A stretch of DNA of 37,202 nucleotides, from the NCBI GenBank assembly GCA_012523265.1, contig JAAYIU010000150.1, positions 1-37,202 of the forward strand. The letters run 5' to 3'. The position numbers and the translations under genes are program-made. Below, in pieces: positions 851 to 12,630 of this stretch; within the stretch, counting starts at the first letter, position 1; each line of letters opens with the position of its first letter. The notes beneath the pieces are model-generated. The model worked only from the letters and a program-made list of their open reading frames with translations. It was not told the DNA's origin and did not search any database. The stretch comes from Bacteroidales bacterium. GTDB taxonomy: Bacteria; Bacteroidota; Bacteroidia; Bacteroidales; 4484-276.

Positions 851-913
851 CCTTGTGGGGCGTATCCCGCACGTGCGGGACGACCTTCCCGCCCTTCAGC
901 GGGACGCTCTATT
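851..913 (-). pseudogene. Degenerate tRNA-like repeat unit A
   Basis: This unit starts with the tRNA 3' acceptor end CCTTGTGGGGCGTA, as in the next unit. Where the T-arm should be it has a perfect 14-base palindrome CCCGCACGTGCGGG. Where the anticodon arm should be it has TTCCCGCCCTTCAGCGGGAC. It ends in GCTCTATT (D-arm edge) and has no 5' half. It cannot form a tRNA. Confidence 0.6.
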
Positions 914-976
914 CCTTGTGGGGCGTACTGGAATCGAACCAGTGACCTTCCCGCCCTTAAGCGGGACGCTCTATTT
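914..976 (-). pseudogene. Degenerate tRNA-like repeat unit B (3' half of tRNA-Val)
   Basis: The acceptor 3' strand and T-arm match the intact tRNA-Val at 1033-1107. The anticodon arm is replaced by the hairpin TTCCCGCCCTTAAGCGGGAC, and sequence identity stops after GCTCTA. It is a tandem neighbour of unit A (same 63-base period). It lacks the D-arm and the 5' acceptor strand. Confidence 0.65.
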
Positions 977-980
977 CTTG

Positions 981-1022
981 CTTAAAAACAAGACAGGGAG
1001 CCAGATTTTACTCTAACTCCCT
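981..1022 (-). terminator. Terminator downstream of tRNA-Val
   Basis: On the minus strand AGGGAGTTAGA pairs with TCTGGCTCCCT (11 pairs including two G-U), with a six-base loop. A T-rich run (CTTGTTTTTAAG) follows. It lies directly 3' of the tRNA gene, as expected for an intrinsic terminator. Confidence 0.65.
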
Positions 1023-1032
1023 ATTTTCCATG

Positions 1033-1107
1033 TGGGGCGTACTGGAATCGAACCAGTGACCCCTTGCCTGTCAAGCAAGTGCTCTAAACCAACTGAGCTA
1101 ACGTCCC
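1033..1107 (-). tRNA. tRNA-Val (anticodon GAC)
   Basis: The 75-base gene folds as a full cloverleaf: acceptor GGGACGT/ACGCCCC, D-stem GCTC/GAGC, anticodon stem CTTGC/GCAAG with loop TTGACAG (anticodon GAC, valine), and T-arm ACTGG-TTCGAAT-CCAGT. The discriminator base is A and CCA is not encoded. Acceptor position 4-69 is an A-C mismatch, which is unusual. A terminator follows at once. It is flanked by broken copies of itself, so conversion between copies is plausible. Confidence 0.9.
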
Positions 1108-1121
1108 AATAATAAAAAGAA

Positions 1122-1177
1122 CCAATGATCTTCCCGCCCTTAAGCGGGACGCTCTAAACCAACTGAGCTAACGTCCC
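1122..1177 (-). pseudogene. Degenerate tRNA-like unit C (5' half of tRNA-Val)
   Basis: From 1177 downward the acceptor 5' strand, D-arm and GAGC match the intact tRNA-Val. The anticodon arm is then replaced by the same TCCCGCTTAAGGGCGGGA hairpin as in unit B. A decayed T-stem (ATCATTGGTTC) follows and the 3' acceptor is lost. The hairpin loop is six bases, not the seven of a tRNA. With unit B it looks like one hairpin-bearing tRNA copy split around the intact gene. Confidence 0.65.
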
Positions 1178-12127: not shown

Positions 12128-12359
12128 TTTTGACCAAGACTACTTGTATTGGTTGATGCGAACATTTTCTTGTCAGCGATTTGTTGCCAACGGAGCAACT
12201 GTAAAACATACTTCTCCAACTAAAATTTGCCAATACAAATTCATTGCACCTGAAGATAAAACCACCCAGCGCCGCATCTTATCGGCCTATGATGATTTGA
12301 TAGAAAACAATTTGAAGCGGATAAAATTGCTGGCTGGCCTGGCGTTGTTCACGGTGTGA
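12124..12359 (+). pseudogene. hsdS: hsdS remnant (type I restriction specificity subunit, C-terminal part)
   Basis: A frame entered just after ATG 12124, but not in phase with it, reads DFDQDYLYWLMRTFSCQRF, then GATVKHTSPTKICQYKFIAP, then TQRRILSAYDDLIENNLKRIKLL. The last stretch is the classical conserved helix at the end of HsdS. Normal proteins have about 400 residues; both target-recognition domains except the last strand region are missing. The final residues AGLALFTV and the TGA stop come from repeat R3, so the natural end was overwritten. Confidence 0.8.
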
Positions 12360-12630
12360 CTTTCAAAACCGGCTTAACTGTTTTTCATGTTTTCTCTTAC
12401 CAAAGCTCTGCCGCTTACGCGAATAGCCGATCGCAAACACGCAGAATTCTTTATTCATCATCATTTTAAAAAAGTATCGGGATGTTTTTCCATTCGGTAT
12501 TCTTTTTAATTTTGGCCTTTTTTAGGCAATGAACATTTGGCACATGAGAAACACGAATTTGATAAAAACAGTAAAACCGGCACACATCCGCTGCATGCGG
12601 GTGGATGTGAGGGGGGATATGAAGAGATAA
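12327..12630 (+). repeat. Island repeat R3, copy 3
   Basis: This is the longest copy, starting inside the last codons of the hsdS remnant (TTGCTGGCTGGCCTGG). It matches 9763-10028 over its left part and 6976-7143 over its right part. It includes a -7-like box TAATTTTG (12507-12514) and a small frame from ATG 12529. It accounts for almost the whole gap between hsdS and the next gene. Confidence 0.8.
12529..12630 (+). CDS. Small ORF in repeat R3, copy 3 (33 aa, unknown)
   Basis: The frame MNIWHMRNTNLIKTVKPAHI continues to TAA 12628-12630. It is similar over 20 residues to the frame in copy 1 and lies 14 bases after a TAATTTTG box. The C-terminal part differs between copies. See the copy 1 entry for interpretation. 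Confidence 0.33.
   Translation: MNIWHMRNTNLIKTVKPAHIRCMRVDVRGDMKR

Follow-up and report, generated by a model that had tools for sequence, protein, structure and literature searches.

Hairpin-armed tRNA fragments beside a Bacteroidales tRNA-Val(GAC) gene: a probable nuclease-less copy of a tRNA-gene-associated GIY-YIG homing-type element

In E. coli, the real tRNA gene tyrT is followed by tandem repeats that contain tRNA 3' pieces, i.e., to our knowledge 3' pieces only, with neither hairpin substitution nor a nuclease. GIY-YIG nucleases of the UPF0213 and SLX1 types are stand-alone or structure-specific enzymes, and we know of no tRNA-linked repeats that accompany them. Phages T4 and T6 possess within their tRNA cluster SegB, which is a free-standing GIY-YIG homing endonuclease that cuts inside tRNA genes (PMC13096335). 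With phage T6, SegB drives tandem amplification of tRNA along with a C-terminally truncated segB, an amplification that involves homology between the 5' end of the tRNA and the 3' end of segB (PMC13096335). Also described are the REP (GTAG/CGTC) repeats and the Rickettsia palindromic elements (RPEs), that is, short GC-rich palindromes which are repeated through the genome, some of them inside genes (PMC3733652).

The subject here is a tRNA locus found within what will be called the window, i.e., the whole 37,202-nt stretch of Bacteroidales DNA that was analyzed. Positions 851-1177 of that window hold a single intact tRNA gene, for tRNA-Val(GAC), as identified by both ARAGORN and Rfam, and this is the sole tRNA-Val(GAC) among the tRNA loci recovered from the source genome. 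Around it are three broken copies, units A, B, and C (Table 1). Along the tRNA strand a promoter region is followed by unit C, spacer, intact tRNA, terminator-like hairpin, unit B, and then unit A, with units B and A in tandem at a 62/63-nt spacing. A sequence-only reading of the locus had held that arms of the broken copies are swapped for TCCCGC..GCGGGA hairpins, with the T arm swapped as well in unit A, and this indeed is where all four of the window's hairpins are found. Thus in unit C the 17-nt anticodon arm CTTGCTTGACAGGCAAG has been replaced by TCCCGCTTAAGGGCGGGA (18 nt), in unit B the same hairpin takes the same place, and in unit A it is TCCCGCTGAAGGGCGGGA that stands for the anticodon arm, with GTCCCGCACGTGCGGGAT in place of the whole 17-nt T arm, ACTGGTTCGATTCCAGT. 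Flanking tRNA sequence had been said to be kept up to each swap, and so it is, as the unit A flanks TAGAGC, GGTC, and ACGCCCCAC are intact around both swaps. The three units are not identical to one another.

Table 1. Features of the tRNA-Val(GAC) locus (window coordinates)
Feature	Position	Strand	Details
Unit C, 5' tRNA fragment	1119..1177	minus	tRNA positions 1 to ~58; upstream of intact gene
Hairpin TCCCGCTTAAGGGCGGGA of unit C	1132..1149	minus	anticodon-arm position
AT-rich spacer	1108..1118	minus	11 nt, between unit C and intact tRNA
Intact tRNA-Val(GAC)	1032..1107	minus	ARAGORN; Rfam RF00005, 64.4 bits
Terminator-like hairpin and T run	about 976..1024	minus	3' of intact tRNA
Unit B, 3' tRNA fragment	918..973	minus	tRNA positions ~22-76; downstream; anticodon-arm hairpin 949-966
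Unit A, second 3' tRNA fragment	855..911	minus	anticodon-arm hairpin 887-904
Second hairpin of unit A, TCCCGCACGTGCGGGA	865..880	minus	perfect palindrome, T-arm position

Units B and C had also been read as the two halves of one copy, split around the intact gene. They overlap, however, at tRNA positions ~22-58, each with its own anticodon-arm hairpin, and at such loci the general rule is for 5' arrays to lie upstream and, separate from these, 3' arrays downstream.

In the 37-kb window TCCCGCN{3,8}GCGGGA is found at 4 sites, all of them within 851-1177, versus at none in 100 shuffles. The form with trailing CG (..GCGGGACG) has 5 copies in the whole 3.98-Mb genome and is confined to tRNA fragments, the fifth copy being inside a 5' fragment of tRNA-Pro(TGG) on another contig (C269). 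Folded as single-stranded DNA, the window units give z values from -2.5 to -3.2. For 116 distinct hairpins located in tRNA context, pairing was followed inward from the search motif: the first inner pair is complementary in 112 of them, with A-T, C-G, T-A, and G-C all in use, and the second in 98 of 114, with T-G and C-A mismatches about equally frequent (5 vs 4). The hairpins, that is, are real base-paired stems.

Equally regular is where they are located. The sequence-only reading took the swaps to respect arm boundaries, and this is borne out across many genomes: of 241 hairpins found in tRNA fragments, the anticodon arm accounts for 211, the T arm for 14, and the D loop, as scored, for 8 (of which at least 4, all from one locus, are clear D-loop cases). 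Junctions are sharp, those on the left piling up at tRNA positions 25-28 and those on the right being concentrated at position 36 or at 44-46. The former of these right junctions is the tRNA-Asn style, in which a 10-nt stretch becomes a 16-nt palindrome, and the latter is the style of the window, in which the whole arm is swapped. In many anticodon-arm hairpins, e.g., of tRNA-Lys and tRNA-Val(TAC) units, the center of the original anticodon loop is retained, which makes these hairpins remodelled versions of an arm and not clean insertions. A cut DNA end folding back on itself was considered as a hairpin source and set aside, since the palindromes do not repeat the tRNA flanks in inverted form.

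T-arm hairpins like that of unit A are seen in about a dozen other loci. Two loci, one of tRNA-Ser(CGA) (L154, G001:C185) and the other of tRNA-Val(TAC) (L036, G038:C36), have downstream copies with a hairpin in the T loop only, close to the sequence type that is reported as the SegB motif. At a tRNA-Val(GAC) locus (L015, G051:C36) it is the D loop that carries the hairpin, in each of five tandem 5' units, and the surroundings yielded no nuclease. Hairpin sequence is not constant either. Loci chosen by nuclease or tRNA similarity alone have in addition yielded TTCCGT..ACGGAA, TCCGCC..GGCGGA, and CCCCGA..TCGGGG, none of which could have been selected by a TCCCG..CGGGA search pattern. Palindromes of the TCCCGN..NCGGGA type are scattered outside of tRNA genes as well in several relatives, with 35 in relative G009, for example, where the perfect palindrome TCCCGCACGTGCGGGA, the same as in the T-arm position of unit A, is found at about 24 places.

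For determining how widespread such fragments are, the search pattern was a tRNA D arm joined to a hairpin, AGCTCAGTTGGTN{3,9}TCCCGN{4,20}CGGGA. This matched in at least 34 of 392 order-level relatives, with a reversed control pattern in that search matching in none of the genomes listed, and it matched at least 119 stretches of an 84,980-species collection. Among the latter matches as listed, 93 are in records named Bacteroidota, and these span Bacteroidia, Flavobacteriia, Chitinophagia, Saprospiria, Cytophagia, and Sphingobacteriia. Some matches from outside of Bacteroidota (e.g., Campylobacterota, Fidelibacterota) proved to be ordinary tRNAs. So too did all 15 of 15 viral-contig matches, i.e., intact tRNAs with anticodon stems that happen to fit the pattern, and there is therefore no sign of phage carriage. 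The tRNA families affected include Asn, Val (TAC and GAC), Lys, Met, Gly, Thr, Phe, Ala, Ile, and Pro, and the source genome supplies a further case at tRNA-Gly(CCC) (contig C136), with hairpins of the TCCGCC..GGCGGA type. Whether such hairpins also occur in other tRNAs was a check that the sequence-only reading had called for, and they do.

The layout is found in isolates, such as Mesohalobacter halotolerans, Niabella ginsengisoli, Cognataquiflexum rubidum, and Salegentibacter tibetensis, with Dokdonia sinensis and Prolixibacter denitrificans as further isolates among the matches. Seen as they are in isolates as well as in many independent assemblies, the swaps are not the product of simple decay, in agreement with the sequence-only reading, nor of a lone assembly error. 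At many loci, contigs of unrelated assemblies end inside arrays (e.g., L116, L124, L132, and L264), and the elements probably are both under-counted and assembly-breaking as a consequence. In the open-licence literature on GIY-YIG together with tRNA and either Bacteroidota or palindromes, no description of such arrays was found.

Dozens of these loci share a constant layout, which consists of 5' fragments, the intact tRNA, a terminator, a small same-strand GIY-YIG open reading frame (ORF), and then 3' fragments. The 5' fragments number from one to many, in tandem, and run from tRNA position 1 to about 50, or sometimes ~67. The 3' fragments, one or more, cover tRNA positions of about 8-76 and are found downstream of the ORF. 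This GIY-YIG gene did not figure in the sequence-only reading. Its association with the arrays is strong: an ORF of this kind occurs within 1 kb of 51 of the 86 hairpin loci that have at least 1 kb of downstream sequence, versus of 0 of 50 control tRNA genes (Fisher p = 2e-14), the controls having been chosen without regard to hairpins and picked independently since ARAGORN calls some of the hairpin fragments tRNAs. Nearly all, 66 of 67, of the GIY-YIG ORFs near hairpin loci are on the tRNA's strand. The association is seen in the reverse direction too, as loci chosen only for encoding GIY-YIG often show hairpin-bearing tRNA fragments. At many tRNA-Asn loci the two are physically merged, with the ORF ending inside a 3' fragment and its C-terminus, LAQLVRVPxLRD-stop, being read from the D arm and hairpin.

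The remaining 35 of 86 hairpin loci have no GIY-YIG ORF within 1 kb. The window is like these, in that no GIY-YIG gene or remnant was found within it, and the homing-element trait of a GIY-YIG nuclease beside its target gene, present along with a Pfam match at the 51 related loci, thus is absent from the window copy. Elsewhere in the same genome (L170, G000:C414, about 12241-12473), a tRNA-Pro(GGG) gene is followed by a terminator and then by a GIY-YIG ORF that is cut off by the contig end. Likely this is a nuclease-bearing element in the window's own genome.

The element nuclease is a protein of about 85-110 aa that matches Pfam PF01541 (GIY-YIG) at about 6e-13 to 7e-15. NCBIfam offered no named model for it, and a phage collection yielded no homologue at 1e-5. 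The nearest solved proteins are UPF0213 EF2693 (1ywl) and the structure-specific nuclease SLX1 (6seh), with the latter likeness suggesting that the element nuclease may recognize hairpins or cruciforms. Were that the case, then the palindrome would be a substrate rather than a shield. A nuclease tree shows 16 changes of tRNA label versus a mean of 33.9 when labels are shuffled, with 0 of 200 shuffles as low, though the alignment behind that tree is short, at 96 columns, and resolves no deep forks. Its tRNA-Asn clade spans Bacteroidia, Flavobacteriia, Cytophagia, and one Chlorobiota record, and its tRNA-Val clade spans Chitinophagia, Flavobacteriia, Saprospiria, and Cytophagia. Nuclease lineages, that is, are tied to tRNA identity and not to host class.

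The fragments themselves are of local origin. In 64 of 78 5' units the seven bases of the acceptor 5' side are those of the adjacent intact tRNA, versus 14% for same-anticodon tRNAs found elsewhere, and the fragments therefore are cis copies of the resident tRNA gene. Their number varies between relatives from 1 to about 10, and sites can be empty in close relatives. Thus a same-genus relative (G003) has at tRNA-Val(GAC) a matching promoter and terminator, the terminator-like hairpin and T run of the window included (L042), but no fragments. At tRNA-Gly(CCC), by contrast, it is this relative that has the nuclease along with TCCGCCAGCTGGCGGA fragments (L145, C25), whereas the window's genome (G000) has there fragments, with three imperfect TCCGCC repeats upstream, and no nuclease was seen (L093, C136). 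Orthologous sites, in other words, exist as occupied and empty alleles, as is expected of a homing element.

Taken together, we consider it reasonably probable that the window holds a nuclease-less copy of a tRNA-gene-associated, free-standing GIY-YIG homing-type element. The nuclease of such an element would cause a break within one arm of its cognate tRNA gene, mostly in the anticodon arm but at times in the T arm, and this break would then be repaired from neighboring or incoming copies that share tRNA sequence. Given a cut in the anticodon arm, 5' units could offer a pairing partner to the left end (positions 1-26) and 3' units one to the right end (44-76), such that repair would always leave one working tRNA and would add 5' fragments upstream and 3' fragments downstream. 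That same repair might also bring the nuclease gene along, which would be homing. In the spare copies a hairpin would come to replace the cut arm, making of these neither functional nor cuttable tRNA genes, but ones which, disarmed, could still supply flanking homology. The nuclease gene presumably is often lost, with the fragment arrays persisting, and the window copy would have either lost its nuclease or never gained one. This model has two weak points. The intact tRNA gene of an array should itself be cut, and the frequency of TCCCG..CGGGA across the phylum is beyond what simple resistance explains.

The sequence-only reading had pointed instead to a small palindromic element or to template switching at hairpins. 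With about 60% of loci having a same-strand GIY-YIG gene within 1 kb, a nuclease-driven element is the better reading than either a free palindrome or template switching alone. A fuller version of the palindromic idea would have a REP-like element, moved by other machinery, insert into the arms of spare tRNA copies, with the GIY-YIG gene being a passenger that also favors tRNA genes. REP and RPE palindromes are, after all, known in bacteria (PMC3733652), and both the palindromes outside of tRNA genes, such as the 35 of G009, and the 35 of 86 arrays that lack a nuclease would then be readily accommodated. Against this, junctions are fixed to tRNA arms, hairpin sequences vary between loci as well as between tRNAs, the middle of the original anticodon loop is kept in many hairpins as is not expected of plain insertion, and the nuclease is found at 51 of 86 loci versus 0 of 50 controls; we regard this explanation as unlikely. 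Quite improbable, in our estimation, is that the fragments are functional RNAs, e.g., tRNA-like leaders or decoys with a regulatory or protective role toward the tRNA, kept by selection on RNA structure. The variation in copy number and the empty sites in close relatives do not fit that explanation well, nor do 3' units that lie beyond the terminator, and the even split of T-G and C-A mismatches gives no sign of strand-specific G-U pairing. In its favor are the location of 5' units in the presumed tRNA leader, stems that are paired with compensatory variation, and the keeping by two relatives (G005 and G011) of the same hairpin at tRNA-Val(TAC).

That the units are tandem and locally derived is also what would come of ordinary unequal crossing-over followed by decay of tRNA copies, with the hairpins arising by repeated mutation or by hairpin-primed template switching. 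We hold this to be very improbable, as one and the same substitution, sharply bounded, is met with across many tRNA families and classes, the stems are real, and decay does not predict association with a nuclease. As for an artefact of assembly or binning in a repetitive stretch, the source genome, in 476 contigs, is a fragmented one, and contigs of many relatives stop within arrays, but the window units are non-identical and the layout recurs in isolates (e.g., C. rubidum, N. ginsengisoli, M. halotolerans, and S. tibetensis), leaving that explanation with next to negligible probability.

Returning to the nuclease-driven element, the tRNA genes it would target are essential and often present in one copy only, as seems the case for tRNA-Val(GAC) here, and an element that cuts and rebuilds such genes must solve the problems of self-damage and host survival together. 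A more ambitious proposal, which we advance tentatively and at somewhat less than even chances, is of a previously undescribed class of tRNA-gene-parasitizing selfish element across Bacteroidota, in which a minimal, structure-type GIY-YIG nuclease would recognize one arm of the cognate tRNA gene in hairpin form, palindrome-armed copies would be kept as immunity and homology sites, and the host would always retain one working tRNA. We take the arrays to be a variant of free-standing GIY-YIG homing elements, with a substantial chance that they merit a class of their own. The arrays represent a readable record of tRNA-arm breaks across a phylum as well as a testable system for the coexistence of homing nucleases with essential targets. 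More practically, they confuse tRNA annotation and break assemblies.

Among known systems, the closest precedent is SegB of phages T4 and T6, and the arrays offer a counterpart, in cells, of the amplification at a tRNA locus that was recently demonstrated for that phage nuclease. SegB and the element share a GIY-YIG domain and a gene located beside tRNA genes, and the 3' end of the element's nuclease gene often overlaps tRNA sequence, as with the LAQLVRVPxLRD C-terminus, which is a further likeness. They differ in that SegB is found in phages whereas the element is found in cellular chromosomes, and in that T4 SegB is about 220 aa in length with a C-terminal extension whereas the element proteins end near the catalytic domain and show no full-length similarity to SegB, i.e., inclusive of the C-terminal region. 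Copies in which hairpins stand for arms are a feature of the element's arrays, with none reported for SegB in the literature found. UPF0213 and SLX1-type proteins resemble the element protein in consisting of a minimal domain of about 90 aa, but the element proteins, unlike these, sit at tRNA genes and have a phylogeny that tracks tRNA identity. With the repeats of E. coli tyrT the arrays have in common that tRNA fragments are repeated adjoining a real tRNA gene. From REPs and RPEs, lastly, they are distinguished by palindromes that stand in for tRNA arms within tandem fragments, with an intact gene alongside, and by the association with a GIY-YIG gene.
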